Assembly: GCF_029338295.1 (NCBI RefSeq)
Contig: NZ_CP119791.1
Span: 2,666,001-2,730,000, forward strand
DNA: 64,000 nt
Direction of reading: 5' to 3'
DNA from: Haladaptatus sp. QDMS2
Lineage (GTDB): Archaea; Halobacteriota; Halobacteria; Halobacteriales; Halococcaceae
Part shown: positions 3,480 through 18,336 of the stretch, one piece after another
Layout of the letters: each line of letters starts with the position of its first letter
How positions within the stretch are numbered: the first letter of the stretch is position 1
The notes under the pieces: model-generated
What the model saw: only the letters and a program-made list of their open reading frames with translations
The model's database searches: none
What the model was told of the DNA's origin: nothing
Made by a program: the position numbers and the translations under genes

Positions 3480-4769
3480 ATGTTCGACGGACTAAAAGAG
3501 AAGCTTTCGAGCTTCCGAAAGGATGTCGAGGAGTCGGCGGAAGTCGAGGAAGATGTCGACGACTCGCCAGCAGCCGACACGGAATCGGCGGCCGACCCGG
3601 CCACAGCCGAGGCCGACGCCGTCGAAGCCGAACCGGAAGCCCCTGCGGAGGCGGCTCCGGACGCAGCGCCGACCGAGACCCCGGAGCCAGCACCCGAACC
3701 GGTCGCAGACGAACCCGACTCCGCAGACCCCACCGAAACCGTCCCTGCGGAGGTTCCTGAGACGACTGACGAAGTCGAACCGGAAGCCAGTGCCGAAGCG
3801 GAACCCGAGACGGACGAAGGAGACGTCCAAGAGGCAGAGGCAGCCGGGGACGAAACAGACCCCGAGAAGGCGGACAACGGCCGCAGTTTCACCGAACGAG
3901 CGAAACTGTTCGCTACCGGACGGGTCGTCATCGAGGAAGAAGACTTAGAAGACCCACTCTGGAACCTGGAGATGGCGCTCATCCAGAGCGACGTCGAGAT
4001 GAACGTCGCAGAGGAGATTTTAGACCGCATCAAGGAGAAACTCGTCGGCGAAACCCGTGTCCGCGGGCAGTCCACGGGCGACATCGTCGAAGAAGCACTC
4101 CACGATGCCCTCTACGACGTCATCAGCGTCGGGCAGTTCGACTTCGACCAGCGGGTTCGCGACGCCGACAAACCCGTCGTCATCATCTTCACGGGGGTAA
4201 ACGGCGTCGGGAAGACCACGTCCATCGCGAAACTCTCGAAATACTTCGAGAAGCAGGGCCTCTCGACGGTGCTTGCCAACGGTGACACCTACCGCGCCGG
4301 GGCGAACGAGCAACTCGCAGAGCATGCCCGCCGGCTCGACAAGAAAATCATCACCCACGACCAGGGCAGCGACCCGACCGCCGTCATCTACGACGCAGTC
4401 GAGTTCGCGAAAGCCAACGACGTAGACGTCGTGCTCGGCGATACGGCCGGTCGGCTCCACACCAATAACGACCTGATGGCGCAACTCGAGAAGATAGACC
4501 GCGTCGTCGGGCCGGACATGACCATCTTCGTGGACGAAGCCGTGGCCGGACAGGACGCCGTCGAACGCGCCCGCACCTTCAACAACGCAGCGGCCATCGA
4601 CGGTGCCATCCTGACGAAGGCAGATGCCGATTCGAACGGTGGCGCGGCAATCTCCATCGCTCACGTCACCGGAAAGCCGATTCTCTTCCTCGGCGTCGGG
4701 CAGGGGTACGACGACTTAGAGCGCTTCGACCCCGAACAGATGCTCGAACGCCTCCTCGGTGAGGAGTGA
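3480..4769 (+). CDS. ftsY: signal recognition particle receptor FtsY
   Basis: A 429-residue SRP GTPase that docks SRP54-ribosome complexes at the membrane. Residues 1 to about 135 form a long acidic Ala/Glu/Pro-rich A-domain typical of haloarchaeal FtsY. The NG domain follows. The P-loop GVNGVGKTTS has its lysine at residue 245, and DTAGR, TKAD and the closing DLERFDPE motif are all present. FtsY is longer than many homologues only because of the acidic extension. It is downstream of prefoldin by 6 nt. Its partner srp54 is 3.4 kb further on, separated by the sulfite reductase genes. Confidence 0.95.
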   Translation: MFDGLKEKLSSFRKDVEESAEVEEDVDDSPAADTESAADPATAEADAVEAEPEAPAEAAPDAAPTETPEPAPEPVADEPDSADPTETVPAEVPETTDEVEPEASAEAEPETDEGDVQEAEAAGDETDPEKADNGRSFTERAKLFATGRVVIEEEDLEDPLWNLEMALIQSDVEMNVAEEILDRIKEKLVGETRVRGQSTGDIVEEALHDALYDVISVGQFDFDQRVRDADKPVVIIFTGVNGVGKTTSIAKLSKYFEKQGLSTVLANGDTYRAGANEQLAEHARRLDKKIITHDQGSDPTAVIYDAVEFAKANDVDVVLGDTAGRLHTNNDLMAQLEKIDRVVGPDMTIFVDEAVAGQDAVERARTFNNAAAIDGAILTKADADSNGGAAISIAHVTGKPILFLGVGQGYDDLERFDPEQMLERLLGEE

Positions 4770-4985: not shown

Positions 4986-5051
4986 ATGGACCAACCAACT
5001 ACTGTCGATAATGCAGTAGGCGTAGCAGAAAGAAGAGGTGGAGTGGCATGA
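4986..5051 (+). CDS. possible 21-residue upstream ORF of the sulfite reductase
   Basis: An ATG at 4986 opens a 21-codon frame (MDQPTTVDNAVGVAERRGGVA) whose TGA overlaps the ATG of the reductase (ATGA), the same coupling style used across this genome. The Shine-Dalgarno-like GAGGTGGA for the reductase lies inside it. Conservation is unknown to me, so it may be chance or a translated leader. The rest of 4792-5047 holds no other convincing gene or strong hairpin. Confidence 0.25.
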   Translation: MDQPTTVDNAVGVAERRGGVA

Positions 5052-6751
5052 ACACCGTAGAGCAGTGGAAACAGGAACAACATCCACTCGACATAATCGA
5101 CGACGTCGAGCGATTCGCCGCGGAGGGAGTTCCATTCGAGAACCTCGAAGACCGGGCTGGTCCCGGCGTCTGGGAGCGGTTGAAGTGGGCGGGGATGTAC
5201 GCCCACGGCAAGCACACGGGCTACTTCATGCTCCGGACGAAGGTTCCCGGCGGGTACCTCACCCCGGAACAGGCCGCCGTCATCGGTGAGGTTGCAGACG
5301 AGTTCGCAACTGCGCCCGACGAGTTTGGCGGCGCAGAACAGAACGAATTCTGGGGGGATGCGTACCTCGACATCACGACCCGACAGGACGTCCAAATGCA
5401 CTGGATTCGACTCGAAGATGTTCCCGAGATCTGGCGACGGTACGACGCAGTCGGCCTGACGACGATTCAGGGATGTGGCGACGGGGCGCGAAACGTTCTC
5501 GGCTGTCCCGCGGCCGGCCTCGACGACCACGAGTGTTTCAACGCCCAGCCCGTTGTGGATGCCGTCTCTGACTTCTTCACAGGGAATCGTGAGTACGCGA
5601 ACCTCCCCCGGAAGTTCAAGCTGACAATCACCGGATGTAGCCGCGATTGTGCACAGTCACAGATAAACGATATCGGACTCACGCCCGCCCGAAAGGAGTT
5701 CGATGGTGAGTCCTACTACGGCTTCCACGCCCGCGTCGGCGGGGGACTTTCCGACGGCCCTCGAATGGCCTCAGACCTGGATGTGTTCATCCGACCCGAA
5801 GACGCAGTCGAGTTCTGCCGTGCCGTCGCCCAGGTGTTCAAGGAACTTGGTGACCGGCACAACCGTGGCGTCTGTCGGATGCGCTACCTCGTCGAACAGC
5901 TCGGCCCGGAGCGATTCGAGGAGGCGATTCGCGCCCGGTGTGAGTCCCCACTTTACTCACGAGGAACGGACCTGACAACCGGGTACACCGGCGACCACGT
6001 TGGCGTCCACGACCAGAAGCAGGACGGCCTCAGATTCGTCGGCTTCAACGTCATCGCGGGTCGGATGGGCGGCGACGAGTTCGCCGCCGCCGCCCGCGCC
6101 GCCGCGGAGTACGGCACCGACGAGGCGTCGGTTCGCCTCGCCACCGACCAGAACTTCCTCATCTCTCACATCCCCGAGGCGAACGTCGAGGCGCTCGTCG
6201 CAGAACCGTTCGCCGCCGACTATCAGCCCGACCCCGGACCCTTCTCGCGAGGAGCGGTCGGCTGTACCGGCAGCGAGTTCTGTAACTACGGCATCATCGA
6301 GACGAAAAATCGGGTGCGTCGCTGGGCGCGGGAACTCGACGAGCGGGTGGCGGTCCCCGACGGCGTCGACGTGATTCGGATGCACATGAGCGGATGTTCG
6401 GCCTCCTGTGCGCAACCCCAAATCGCCGGCATCGGCTTTCGTGGAGAGACCGTGAAAGTCGAGGACGGTACGAGTACCAACGCTGAAGGTGACGCCATCG
6501 TCGAGGGCATGGACGTGGGCCTCGGGGGAAGTCTCGGAGCGGACAACGACTTCATCGACTGGGTGGAGACCGCCGTCCCCGCCAGTTCGGTGGTACCTGC
6601 GCTCGAACAGCTCTTTTCGGCTTACTCGACGGAGCGAACCGAGGGCGAGCGCTTCTACGAGTGGTGTCGACGCGTGGATAACGACCAACTGCGAACCATC
6701 ATGCAGCACGCGGACGTGAACGTCTCGGGGGGTGTCGCCCATGAGGGATGA
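5048..6751 (+). CDS. siroheme [4Fe-4S] sulfite/nitrite reductase
   Basis: A 567-residue assimilatory-type siroheme reductase with two pseudo-symmetric ferrodoxin-like/siroheme halves. The second half carries the siroheme-[4Fe-4S] signature C406-X5-C412 and C450-X3-C454 (GCTGSEFC and GCSASC). The first half has TIQGCGDGARNVLG and GCSRDCAQ. The reaction is six-electron reduction of sulfite to sulfide or nitrite to ammonia. Length alone fits either substrate. No nitrate reductase, nitrate transporter or molybdenum-cofactor genes are adjacent. Instead the next gene, overlapping by 11-20 nt, is an F420H2 dehydrogenase-like flavoprotein, which favours sulfite as substrate and F420H2 as electron source. 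A GAGGTGGA ribosome site precedes the ATG. Substrate assignment is inference. Confidence 0.85.
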   Translation: MNTVEQWKQEQHPLDIIDDVERFAAEGVPFENLEDRAGPGVWERLKWAGMYAHGKHTGYFMLRTKVPGGYLTPEQAAVIGEVADEFATAPDEFGGAEQNEFWGDAYLDITTRQDVQMHWIRLEDVPEIWRRYDAVGLTTIQGCGDGARNVLGCPAAGLDDHECFNAQPVVDAVSDFFTGNREYANLPRKFKLTITGCSRDCAQSQINDIGLTPARKEFDGESYYGFHARVGGGLSDGPRMASDLDVFIRPEDAVEFCRAVAQVFKELGDRHNRGVCRMRYLVEQLGPERFEEAIRARCESPLYSRGTDLTTGYTGDHVGVHDQKQDGLRFVGFNVIAGRMGGDEFAAAARAAAEYGTDEASVRLATDQNFLISHIPEANVEALVAEPFAADYQPDPGPFSRGAVGCTGSEFCNYGIIETKNRVRRWARELDERVAVPDGVDVIRMHMSGCSASCAQPQIAGIGFRGETVKVEDGTSTNAEGDAIVEGMDVGLGGSLGADNDFIDWVETAVPASSVVPALEQLFSAYSTERTEGERFYEWCRRVDNDQLRTIMQHADVNVSGGVAHEG

Positions 6752-8150
6752 ACCGTTTCCGGGCGTTCCCGGCAGAGAGACCTCGGCGGAAGCACGGACC
6801 GATGGGGGCGCGGTGAACGTAAGCGAGGACGGCAGCCTCGGCGACCTCACATTCACCCGGCCGGCGGAGGGAAAGAGCCAGGACGTAGAGGAGTCCGACC
6901 CGACCGTGCGGTGGGGCGTCCCTGATGGCGTCGATCTGGACACGCCGGGCTACTCGATTCGGGCGTCGATGAACGACATTGAGACACCAGACGAAAAGAC
7001 GTGGTTCATGGAACTCGACGAAGCGGTCATCAGAGAAGACCGGTGTATCCAGTGTGGAACCTGCGTTGCCGCCTGCCCCTCGGACTCGATTGGCATCGGT
7101 GACGACGGTCTGCCAGAACTGGTCAAAATGTGTACCGGTTGTTCGCTGTGCTGGGATTTCTGCCCCCGCGGCGGCCTCCGCTACGAACGTCAGTGGAAGA
7201 TTACCGGTGGCGACGACAACGTGAAAGGCGCGGGAGATCCTCTCACCGAATTCTCGGCGAAAGTGACCGACGACTGGCGCGAGAACGCCCAAGACGGCGG
7301 TGTCGTGACGGGCATCCTCAGTCACTTGCTAGAAGCCGGTGAAATAGATGGAGCGCTCATCGCCACCGAATCCGCAGACGAACCGTGGAAAGCCGAGAGT
7401 TTCCTCGCGACCACTCACGACGAGCTGGTCGCAAACGCCGGAAGCTTCTACAATCAGACGATGGCGCTCGGTAACCTCGACCTCGAACAGTGGGCGCACA
7501 AACTCCCCAACAAGCCGGTTTCCGAGTTGAGCCTCGCCGTGGTCGGGACACCATGCGAAATCGAGGGCATCCGCGCCCTACAGGACTTTGACTGGGATTA
7601 CCAGAGTCAAGAGGAGGGGGTGCGCGCCATTTCCTACACCATCGCGCTGATGTGCACGAAGAACTTCAATTACCAGCGACTCATCGGCGAGCAATTGGAA
7701 GAAAAACGCGGCGTCTCACCGGACGAAATCGGTAAACTCGATGTGCTGCACGGGAAGATGATGGCCTACGACCACGACGGCGACCTCCTGGTCGAAGAGG
7801 ACGTGGCGAACTTCCACGACGCCGCCCTCAAAGGCTGTGACGAGTGTGCCGACTTCACCGGCTACTGCGCGGACCTCACCGTTGGCTCCGTTGGGAGCAG
7901 CGACGAGTTTTCGAGCGTTATCATCCGCACGGAACAGGGGATGCGAGCGTGGGAACTCACCGAACCCGACCTCGAGTACCACGACTTAGAAGACCGGAGC
8001 GCGATTGGCAAACTACAGGGCTGGGACAAGAAGAAGGCCTTCGAGTCGCTAAAGCGACCGTTCGACCCGGACGCCCCACGATTCATCGACTACACCGACC
8101 ACGCCGAGTGGTACGACACGAATCTGAACCCCCACGAATCGGACCACTGA
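6741..8150 (+). CDS. FrhB/FpoF-like coenzyme F420 dehydrogenase subunit with two [4Fe-4S] clusters
   Basis: About 469 residues (472 if GTG 6732 is used). After a variable acidic N-terminus of about 95 residues come two ferredoxin clusters: numbered from the GTG, C105-X2-C108-X2-C111-X3-C115-P and C134-X2-C137-X2-C140-X3-C144-P. The rest is the F420-hydrogenase/dehydrogenase beta subunit fold, with GTPCEIEGIRAL, LMCTKNFNY and GCDECADFTGYCAD supplying its usual cysteines and flavin/F420 site. Such subunits oxidise F420H2 through FAD and pass electrons to Fe-S partners. The gene overlaps the sulfite reductase, so the two products probably form one complex, like the two halves of methanogen Fsr. 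The start ATG 6741 is preferred, with GTG 6732 as the alternative. Confidence 0.85.
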   Translation: MRDEPFPGVPGRETSAEARTDGGAVNVSEDGSLGDLTFTRPAEGKSQDVEESDPTVRWGVPDGVDLDTPGYSIRASMNDIETPDEKTWFMELDEAVIREDRCIQCGTCVAACPSDSIGIGDDGLPELVKMCTGCSLCWDFCPRGGLRYERQWKITGGDDNVKGAGDPLTEFSAKVTDDWRENAQDGGVVTGILSHLLEAGEIDGALIATESADEPWKAESFLATTHDELVANAGSFYNQTMALGNLDLEQWAHKLPNKPVSELSLAVVGTPCEIEGIRALQDFDWDYQSQEEGVRAISYTIALMCTKNFNYQRLIGEQLEEKRGVSPDEIGKLDVLHGKMMAYDHDGDLLVEEDVANFHDAALKGCDECADFTGYCADLTVGSVGSSDEFSSVIIRTEQGMRAWELTEPDLEYHDLEDRSAIGKLQGWDKKKAFESLKRPFDPDAPRFIDYTDHAEWYDTNLNPHESDH

Positions 8151-8216: not shown

Positions 8217-9605
8217 ATGGTACTTGACAATCTCGGGAGCTCCCTGCGGGGCACCCTCGACAAACTCCGCGGCAAGTCTCGTCTCAGCAAGGAGGACGTC
8301 GAGGAGATCGTCAAGGAGATTCAACGCTCTCTCCTGCAGGCCGACGTCGACGTCGGCCTCGTGATGGAACTCTCCGACAACATCAAAACGCGCGCCCTGG
8401 AGGAAGAACCGCCGGGCGGCACCTCGGCGCGTGACCACGTCCTTCGCATCGTCTACGAGGAACTCGTGGACCTCGTCGGCGAGAGCACCGAACTCCCGCT
8501 CGAAAAACAGACCATCATGCTCGCGGGCCTCCAGGGGTCGGGGAAGACCACCTCCGCCGCGAAGATGGCGTGGTGGTTCTCGAAGAAGGGGCTTCGCCCC
8601 GCGGTCATCCAGACCGACACCTTCCGGCCGGGCGCCTACGACCAGGCCAAGGAGATGTGTCGCCGGGCGGAAGTCGATTTCTACGGCGACCCAGACGAGG
8701 AAGACCCGGTCAAAATCGCCCGCGAGGGCCTCGAAGCGACCAAAGACGCGGACGTGCAGATCGTGGACACCGCCGGTCGCCACGCGCTCGAAGCCAACCT
8801 CATCGACGAAATCGAGGAGATTCGCGCGGAAGTGAAACCCGACCGTTCGCTGCTCGTCTTAGACGCCGCAATCGGGCAGGGTGCAAAGGAACAGGCCCAG
8901 CAGTTCGACGAGTCGGTGGGTATCGACGGCGTCATCATCTCCAAACTCGACGGGACCGCGAAGGGTGGTGGGGCGCTCACCGCCGTCAAGGAGACGAACT
9001 CCTCTATCGCCTTCCTCGGGACGGGCGAGACCGTCCAGGACATCGAACGCTTCGAACCGAGCGGCTTCATCTCTCGCCTGCTCGGGATGGGTGACTTAAA
9101 ACAGCTCACCGAGCGCGTCGAGCGCGCCATGGCGGAAACCCAGGAGGAGGACGAAGACTGGGACCCAGAGGACATGCTGAAAGGCACGTTCACCCTCCGG
9201 GACATGCGCCGGCAGATGCAGGCGATGAACAAGATGGGGCCGCTCGACCAGGTTCTCGACATGATTCCGGGCCTCGGCGGTGGGCTGAAAGACCAGCTGC
9301 CCGACGACGCGATGGACGTGACGAAAGACCGGATGCGCGTCTTCGAGTTCATCATGGACTCGATGACCGAAAACGAACTGGAGAACCCCCGGTCTATCAG
9401 TGCGAGTCAGGTGAAGCGAATCGCCCGCGGTTCTGGCACCTCCGAAGAGCAAGTGCGCGAACTGCTCCAGCAACACAAGATGATGGAGCGGACGCTCAAG
9501 CAGTTCAGCGGGATGGGCGATGGCGACATGCAACGGATGATGAAGCGCATGCAAAAACAGGGCGGTGGCGGAATGGGCGGTATGGGCGGCATGGGGCCGT
9601 TCTGA
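8217..9605 (+). CDS. srp54: signal recognition particle 54 kDa protein
   Basis: A 462-residue SRP54/Ffh GTPase. The N domain (about 1-95) is followed by the G domain with P-loop [10 protein letters not shown] (lysine 110), DTAGRHALE and [10 protein letters not shown]. The Met-rich M domain (from about 320) binds 7S RNA and signal sequences and contains repeated MKRMQKQ-like patches. The tail ends [12 protein letters not shown]. It recognises signal peptides on ribosomes and delivers them to FtsY. A TATA-like CCTTTATC lies about 32 nt upstream of the ATG. Its gene is separated from ftsY by the sulfite reductase pair. Confidence 0.96.
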
Positions 9606-12975: not shown

Positions 12976-13051
12976 AGCCAAGGGCCGGATTTGAACCGGC
13001 GATGGGCGGCTCTGCAGGCCGCTGCGTTTGGCCGGACTCTGCCACCTTGGC
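12976..13051 (-). tRNA. tRNA-Cys (GCA)
   Basis: A complete cloverleaf on the minus strand. Acceptor arms are GCCAAGG/CCTTGGC, the D-arm starts GGCAGAGT, the anticodon stem GCGGC/GCCGC holds loop CTGCAGA with anticodon GCA, and the T-arm is GCCGGTTCAAATCCGGC. The discriminator base is U, the usual cysteine identity base. It is the last gene after the rRNA operon, as in other haloarchaea, but follows a strong terminator and has its own TATA element. CCA is not encoded. Confidence 0.93.
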
Positions 13052-13076
13052 GCATCAATTGGTAGTGGGGTGAGTC

Positions 13077-13084
13077 GCTTAAGC
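13077..13084 (-). promoter_or_regulatory. TATA element for tRNA-Cys
   Basis: GCTTAAGC on the minus strand, about 26 nt before the tRNA-Cys 5' end, matching the TTAAG core of the rRNA promoter boxes. Spacing fits transcription starting at or just before the tRNA. Confidence 0.5.
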
Positions 13085-13142
13085 GTAGCGGTCCACGACG
13101 AACCGCCAGACGCGAGCGTTGCCACTCGTCGTCTGTAAATAC

Positions 13143-13171
13143 AAAAAGCCCAGCGCTCTCGCTACTGGGCT
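13143..13171 (-). terminator. intrinsic terminator of the rRNA operon
   Basis: On the minus strand a 7-bp stem AGCCCAG/CTGGGCT encloses TAGCGAGAGCG and is followed directly by TTTTT. It lies about 20 nt after the 5S 3' end and before tRNA-Cys, so the long rRNA transcript probably ends here. Confidence 0.75.
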
Positions 13172-13190
13172 TGATGAATGAAGTATGAAT

Positions 13191-13420
13191 GGAGGCGGCG
13201 AACCACTGGTTGCAGACCGTTATAACGGACTGTTCTCCAATTCCACCGGGACGAACCCTGCGTGTACTATGGATGGCAGTCCTGGGACTGTACCTTGTCA
13301 CCCTTGCGGGTCAGCTCTCCCAGAGACTCTCGTACTCCAGTACTCACTGGAACGCAGGCGGGCTTATCTTCCGTGTTCGGGATGGGTACGGGAGTTGCCC
13401 CGCCGCTGTGGCCGCCTTAA
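13191..13420 (-). rRNA. rrf: 5S rRNA with a large internal insertion
   Basis: The 5' end reads TTAAGGCGGCCACAGCGG and continues through the invariant CCCGTACCCATCCCGAACACGG. The 3' end GTTCGCCGCCTCC pairs with the 5' GGCGGC to close helix I. The total is about 230 nt, against the usual 122. About 108 extra nt (roughly 13203-13310) interrupt the 3' part between GAGAGCTG and CAGTGGTTCGCC. The insert has four small hairpins, including ACCC-GCAA-GGGT at 13300-13311. An inserted 5S of this size is known from Halococcus morrhuae. Exact ends are estimated. Confidence 0.9.
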
Positions 13421-13492
13421 CGCCGATCTGTGGAATCGAACCACGGGCACCGTGTGTGGTGAACACCAGTTATCGGTGGTTATCGCTGTAAT

Positions 13493-13507
13493 GTACGTGC
13501 AATCCAG
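13493..13507. repeat. 3' arm of the 23S processing stem
   Basis: GTACGTGCAATCCAG (plus strand) is a perfect 15-nt inverted repeat of 16507-16521. Together they flank 23S rRNA and form the long stem cut at a bulge-helix-bulge by tRNA-splicing endonuclease in archaeal rRNA maturation. Confidence 0.8.
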
Positions 13508-13549
13508 TTTACGCCTGGACTCGTTCCGAAGTCCATCCGTAATGCGGTA

Positions 13550-16465
<2,916 letters not shown>

Positions 16466-16506
16466 TGTTTGTTCCGGTTGTGACTCGGAACGCGTCCAGT
16501 GGACGT

Positions 16507-16521
16507 CTGGATTGCACGTAC
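16507..16521. repeat. 5' arm of the 23S processing stem
   Basis: CTGGATTGCACGTAC (plus strand), the exact inverted repeat of 13493-13507. Adjacent complementary stretches extend the stem with bulges. Confidence 0.8.
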
Positions 16522-16633
16522 ACACAGCGTCATCACGCACACATCGGGTAAGATGATGCGTTCAACCCTTCCCACTCGCGCTTACACGGAGTGGTGCATC
16601 GGTTCTTGCAGGGATTCAATCGTAGTGCCGTCT

Positions 16634-16645
16634 CCCACTTAAGGG
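16634..16645 (-). promoter_or_regulatory. internal promoter box in the 16S-23S spacer
   Basis: CCCTTAAGTGGG on the minus strand between tRNA-Ala and 23S is identical to the box at 18654-18665 of the main promoter array. It could start extra 23S-5S transcripts. Confidence 0.6.
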
Positions 16646-16672
16646 ACACGGTTCGGATTGAACCCATTTGCA

Positions 16673-16744
16673 TGGACCCACAGGGATTCGAACCCTGGGC
16701 ATCCTCCTTGCAAAGGAGGCACTCTACCACTGAGCTATGGGCCC
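16673..16744 (-). tRNA. tRNA-Ala (TGC) in the rRNA spacer
   Basis: A 72-nt cloverleaf. Acceptor arms GGGCCCA/TGGGTCC include the G3-U70 wobble that defines alanine identity. The anticodon stem CCTCC/GGAGG has loop TTTGCAA with anticodon TGC, the T-arm is CAGGGTTCGAATCCCTG and the discriminator is A. It lies between 16S and 23S, the standard archaeal position, and is released from the same primary transcript. Confidence 0.96.
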
Positions 16745-16765
16745 GCCTTCCAACTGGAAGGCAGT

Positions 16766-16783
16766 TGTTAGCCTTGATAGTTC
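16766..16783. repeat. 3' arm of the 16S processing stem
   Basis: TGTTAGCCTTGATAGTTC (plus strand) is a perfect 18-nt inverted repeat of 18455-18472. The two arms bracket 16S and form the bulge-helix-bulge precursor stem, with further pairing of CCGGTCGGG and CCCGATCGG. Confidence 0.82.
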
Positions 16784-16863
16784 AAAGGTGCCCGACCGGT
16801 GAAACGCGGTCGAACGGTGAAACCAATTAAGGTGGGTCGGGCCGAAGCCCGATCCCGGTCTTT

Positions 16864-18336
<1,473 letters not shown>

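Follow-up and report, generated by a model that had tools for sequence, protein, structure and literature searches.

Two overlapping genes in a 64,000-nucleotide window of the Haladaptatus sp. QDMS2 genome (the whole stretch of DNA analysed here) probably encode, judging from their sequence, the haloarchaeal assimilatory F420H2-dependent sulfite reductase that has been predicted under the name aFsr. The sequence-only reading of this DNA had inferred an F420H2-dependent enzyme made of two subunits. This idea is not new: a putative haloarchaeal aFsr was put forward in 2012, combining an 'aSir type' alpha subunit with a beta subunit of the Fsr-N type (Susanti and Mukhopadhyay, 2012; PMC3448663), and the prediction was cited again in 2022 (PMC9295563). 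The QDMS2 pair has the same make-up and the same proposed function: its alpha subunit is a siroheme reductase subunit of the aSir type, its beta subunit a homologue of Fsr-N with two N-terminal ferredoxin clusters, encoded in the same genomic context. Nothing essential differs; it is another orthologue of a pair already known, as a prediction, and the genera named in 2012 (Halogeometricum, Halorhabdus, Halalkalicoccus and Haloterrigena) are also among the named loci that we recovered. A literature search, conducted mostly without subscription papers, found no biochemical or genetic test of the enzyme. What is added here is a quantification of the gene overlap, of its reading frame and of its distribution, a rhodanese-bearing sister lineage, the case for a single origin, a set of genomes in which aFsr is the sole siroheme reductase, and the correction that the pair is not a split Fsr.

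Layout and conservation of the gene pair

The alpha gene (positions 5048..6751 of the window, + strand) starts with ATG and codes for a siroheme/[4Fe-4S] sulfite reductase subunit of the NirA/aSiR type, 567 residues long. The beta gene, on the same strand and ending at 8150, codes for an F420H2 dehydrogenase subunit resembling Fsr-N and FpoF, and may start at a GTG at 6732 (472 residues) or at an ATG at 6741 (469 residues). Stop codon included, the genes share 20 nt from the GTG (6732..6751) or 11 nt from the ATG, exactly the 11-20 nt overlap that had been claimed, and translational coupling through it is probable on the face of this arrangement. Two separate subunits, encoded in the reverse of the order found in Fsr, had likewise been correctly read: there are indeed two genes here, and that of the reductase comes first.

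This arrangement is conserved. Among 145 Halobacteria genomes, with thresholds of at least 75% identity for alpha and at least 70% for beta, orthologues of both subunits are found in an identical set of 39 genomes, adjacent every time. In 80 named haloarchaeal loci fetched with beta, a set that shares genomes with the former sample and is not independent of it, alpha lies directly upstream of beta in 79, including two directly overlapping pairs that a script had flagged as 'not adjacent' and that were counted by eye. Beta is in the +1 frame relative to alpha in all 79 pairs, and 78 of these offer beta a start codon within alpha; at one locus (L199) there is no alpha within 4 kb of beta. In Haloferax mediterranei the pair sits on a plasmid, with an annotated overlap of 11 nt, its members being labelled ferredoxin--nitrite reductase and F420 hydrogenase beta subunit. 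The adjacency of alpha and beta is far beyond chance, and the objection raised beforehand, that the pair might be found mostly apart in relatives, does not hold (39/39 adjacent; 79/80 named loci).

The surroundings say less. The QDMS2 pair is flanked by ftsY and an srp54-like gene (window 3480-4769 and 8217-9605), and further on, on the minus strand, lies an rRNA operon (16S, tRNA, 23S, 5S, tRNA; 12976-18336). The FtsY gene is found upstream of the pair in 38/80 named loci, as its sole frequent neighbour: the position is conserved, while a functional link has no obvious basis. No recurrent sulfur genes were seen among the neighbours of pairs of this kind, hereafter type I, in the 80 named loci, and the MetY context invoked in support of an assimilatory role falls away: the two Cys_Met_Meta_PP enzymes sit at 53.6-57.7 kb, some 45 kb off. 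A fragment of a type I alpha gene (residues 1-83, 61% identity), probably a remnant, lies on another QDMS2 replicon (G000:C3:100815-101063; L112 3816-4064, minus strand).

A NirA/aSiR-type reductase and its F420 module

Pfam finds in alpha two repeats of NIR_SIR (1e-48) plus NIR_SIR_ferr (2.9e-31) and no ferredoxin domain, unlike the Dsr-like reductase of Fsr, which has one inserted. Against PDB sequences, the best matches are plant nitrite reductase (NiR; E 2.8e-84) and Mycobacterium tuberculosis NirA, with Fsr at 8.5e-7; an AlphaFold2 model (pLDDT 90) has 1ZJ8 as its best fold match, with a query-normalised TM of 0.84 to M. tuberculosis NirA (1ZJ8) and 0.37 to Fsr. Because both E-values and TM favour NirA/NiR over Fsr, sequence and model place alpha in the NirA/aSiR family and rule out that it is the reductase half of Fsr. 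The split Fsr of the sequence-only reading must accordingly be given up: only beta is homologous to Fsr, and the F420 module would have joined a different siroheme family, Fsr itself never having been split.

It is worth setting out what the pair shares with these relatives. With NirA (1ZJ8) and the plant ferredoxin-dependent NiR/SiR, alpha shares the fold, two pseudo-symmetric halves and the catalytic cysteines, siroheme-[4Fe-4S] ligands included; those enzymes, however, depend on soluble ferredoxin for their electrons and lack an F420 partner, which the present pair has. With methanogen Fsr (7NP8, 7NPA) the pair has in common a homologous F420H2-oxidase/ferredoxin module, three cluster motifs, siroheme chemistry and a Lys/Arg anion site; yet Fsr is a single polypeptide, with the F420H2-oxidase fused at the N-terminus of a Dsr-like reductase that carries an inserted ferredoxin domain, whereas here a separate NirA/aSiR-type subunit without insert is encoded by the first of two genes.

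Both cysteine motifs that had been noticed in alpha are present: alignment identifies C406-X5-C412 and C450-X3-C454 (6263..6409, +) as ligands of the catalytic, siroheme-coupled [4Fe-4S] cluster, and all four residues are shared by the type I orthologues (30/30) and every other member aligned. The alignment shows conservation of the residues that bind the anion, R63, R148, K189 and K191, and the motif K189-F-K191 (5612..5620, +), with Lys and not Asn at 191, is that of a sulfite-type site. Plant nitrite reductases carry Asn at the matching position, and Lys there favours sulfite. Types I and II, the SiR3 reductases and the archaeal outgroups all have Lys as residue 191, with Asn confined to the clade of nas-cluster nitrite reductases; alpha does not bear the mark of assimilatory nitrite reductases, in which Asn replaces the second active-site lysine. 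The structure of the tobacco N226K mutant is among the fold matches of the alpha model.

The N-terminal half of alpha holds a further set of cysteines, C143, C153 and C197-X3-C201 (5474..5650, +), invariant in type I alphas (30/30), of which C197-X3-C201 is matched by hhalign, across the pseudo-twofold, to the catalytic CX3C in the C-terminal half. In DsrAB, each of the two subunits binds one [4Fe-4S] cluster. By analogy, the N-terminal half of alpha may hold a second cluster, and these cysteines are its candidate ligands. C153, C197 and C201 are retained in most archaeal members, outgroups included, and lost in some SiR3 proteins; tobacco NiR lacks them. We rejected the set as a hallmark of aFsr, since most archaeal relatives, nas nitrite reductases and outgroups among them, carry it; as a feature of most archaeal NirA/aSiR members it is possibly described here for the first time.

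In beta, Pfam recognises a Fer4 dicluster followed by FrhB_FdhB_N (4e-22) and FrhB_FdhB_C (2.6e-33). The best PDB sequences are 8riu_B (3.6e-42) and Fsr (7np8, 1.3e-36), and Foldseek puts 8riu, Fsr and Frh at the top, the query being a low-confidence model whose pLDDT stays below 50 over residues 1-167, the ferredoxin part, and whose quality does not suffice for a judgement on docking. Two ferredoxin-type [4Fe-4S] motifs (C105, C108, C111, C115 and C134, C137, C140, C144; 7044..7163, +) are followed by a third, P274-C275-X32-C308-X60-C369-X2-C372 (7551..7847, +), and the twelve cysteines, eight and four respectively, are invariant in 47/47 paired betas. Cluster 1 of methanogen Fsr, next to the flavin, has the motif PCX40CX54CX2C (PMC10229431), and since P274-C275...C369-X2-C372 fits this pattern, the third cluster of beta would be its flavin-proximal counterpart. 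Two ferredoxin clusters and an FrhB domain had thus been rightly read in beta; a total of two clusters had not, as there are ligands for three. The N-terminal extension of beta is variable (about 90 residues or more) and displays, in several orthologues, Cys- or His-rich stretches, such as CGCGSCGC or HGHSHDHADHSDH (L081, L084, L085, L038). Copies of beta with no alpha nearby occur in L076 (4301-7386), where beta adjoins an FAD_binding_2 oxidoreductase, in L199 and on plasmid pHALXA01 of Halopiger xanaduensis (435163-436305).

We may take these elements as a starting point to understand how the enzyme, probably a two-subunit F420H2-dependent sulfite reductase, would work. Beta would oxidise F420H2 at its FAD, single electrons then running through the flavin-proximal [4Fe-4S] cluster and the two N-terminal ferredoxin clusters. 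The ferredoxin domain of beta would dock on alpha where soluble ferredoxin docks on ordinary NirA/SiR, turning a ferredoxin-dependent reductase into an F420H2-dependent one, and the siroheme-[4Fe-4S] centre of alpha would reduce sulfite to sulfide with six electrons. That the subunits form such a complex, with F420H2 as donor, we infer. In the F420-reducing CO dehydrogenase, a ferredoxin-FrhB module is anchored by its ferredoxin domain, and F420 is preferred about eightfold over ferredoxin (PMC11493965). The zeta subunit of this enzyme from Ca. Ethanoperedens thermophilum (8RIU) is the closest solved relative of beta, with the same module appended to a ferredoxin-dependent enzyme, differing in its partner enzyme and in the opposite direction of electron flow; by analogy, it may serve as the best available model for the action of beta on alpha. 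The conserved F420 partner argues against soluble ferredoxin as sole donor to alpha.

A sister lineage and the origin of the pairing

A second kind of pair, type II, is present in 18/145 Halobacteria genomes (L069-L075, L078, L127-L135), with an alpha of about 800 residues followed directly by a beta of about 410-440 residues; in the two type II alphas whose domain content was examined, two rhodanese domains precede the reductase. In the alpha tree, types I and II form one clade (support 100/98), the sister clade consisting of SiR3 and the nas nitrite reductases, for neither of which was an F420 partner seen in the 145 genomes. Since both types belong to a single clade, and related archaeal alphas outside Halobacteria have no FrhB neighbour (11 loci from related phylum members), the simplest reading is that the pairing arose once, inside Halobacteria. 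At the type II locus L073 there are, in addition, genes for a uroporphyrinogen-III methyltransferase, a siroheme-synthase-like NAD-binding protein and a CysD-like protein; another observation is that one type II locus adjoins nosZ.

A fusion of rhodanese and sulfite reductase has been noted earlier (PMC11237513), and our literature search found no mention of an F420 partner for it; the rhodanese-bearing sister lineage with its own F420 subunit, and the single origin of the pairing, are possibly new here. A more encompassing proposal, put forward tentatively and with a modest chance of being right, is that aFsr comprises two sister lineages stemming from one pairing event, type II being an F420H2-driven sulfide synthase fed by thiosulfate or persulfide, and that in both lineages a second cluster in the N-terminal half of alpha may extend the wire between beta and siroheme.

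Substrate, role and meaning for haloarchaea

Several observations, taken together, favour sulfite as the substrate. In seven near-complete genomes (G039, G043, G064, G071, G092, G107, G136) aFsr is the sole NIR_SIR protein; unpaired SiR3 is rarer in aFsr carriers (14/39 as against 81/106 of the others; Fisher p 1e-5, from a tally made by hand on the match list and with a test that ignores relatedness); the QDMS2 genome has CofD and F420:NADP oxidoreductase; and the nearest alphas outside Halobacteria adjoin ATP sulfurylase (Sat) and CysH. The role would be assimilatory. It must be counted against this reading of the pair that canonical ATP sulfurylase (PF01747) is absent from QDMS2 and from 142/145 Halobacteria. 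Co-distribution with sulfate activation is uninformative, with PF01747 in 3/145 and matches to PF01507 that are mostly weak and, where examined, CysD-like; clear CysH-like genes are found in three aFsr carriers only (G064, G130, G132). QDMS2 has tandem CysD-like genes of about 320 residues, below NCBIfam cut-offs (L093 4984-7188; C1:1868k-1870k), and a relative of these adjoins the type II pair of L073; they are possibly unusual sulfate-activation enzymes of haloarchaea devoid of the canonical one. The pair might then be a system for detoxification of sulfite or thiosulfate, or for redox balancing, as the missing activation route and the sulfite-detoxifying methanogen Fsr (PMC10229431) would suggest. 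We consider this unlikely, given the genomes that rely on aFsr as their only siroheme reductase and its distribution, complementary to that of SiR3, although both facts remain compatible with a dual role.

It is improbable that the same complex is instead an F420H2-dependent nitrite reductase, assimilatory or detoxifying. Methanogen Fsr also reduces nitrite, and with a lower Km (PMC10229431), so that the substrate of aFsr cannot be read from homology alone; MtFsr prefers nitrite, FsrII of ANME archaea is a nitrite reductase (PMC9295563), the H. mediterranei orthologue bears that annotation, and nosZ lies beside one type II locus. Yet alpha has Lys191 where the nas clade has Asn, QDMS2 possesses a dedicated, Asn-bearing nas-type nitrite reductase whose gene has molybdopterin oxidoreductase and MFS genes as neighbours, and seven genomes have no other siroheme reductase; the rhodanese fusion of type II, with siroheme and CysD-like genes at one locus, also points to sulfur. 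Nitrite as main substrate thus appears less likely on these sequence grounds. Quite improbable, finally, is an arrangement without stable complex, in which alpha would be an ordinary ferredoxin-dependent sulfite reductase and beta an oxidoreductase of the F420:ferredoxin type, either confined to supplying ferredoxin or working for another enzyme. Alpha does belong to the ferredoxin-dependent NirA family, and isolated betas exist (L076, L199), that of L076 suggesting by its neighbour that the F420 module may work with a different enzyme; against this stand the invariant co-occurrence, the overlapping genes with their conserved frame, and the unpaired sister reductases, never found with a beta gene.

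Sulfite reduction by aFsr, if confirmed, would have consequences for a little-charted part of haloarchaeal metabolism. Natrinema sp. J7-2 was reported to lack the canonical sulfate-activation route, yet it grows with sulfate as sole sulfur source (PMC3402447), and the authors of PMC8305020 knew of only one F420-dependent reaction in haloarchaea. The genomes where aFsr is the sole siroheme reductase allow a clean genetic test. With aFsr confirmed, the final step of haloarchaeal sulfide formation and its electron donor would be identified, the annotation as ferredoxin--nitrite reductase corrected, and F420 given a concrete role in these organisms.
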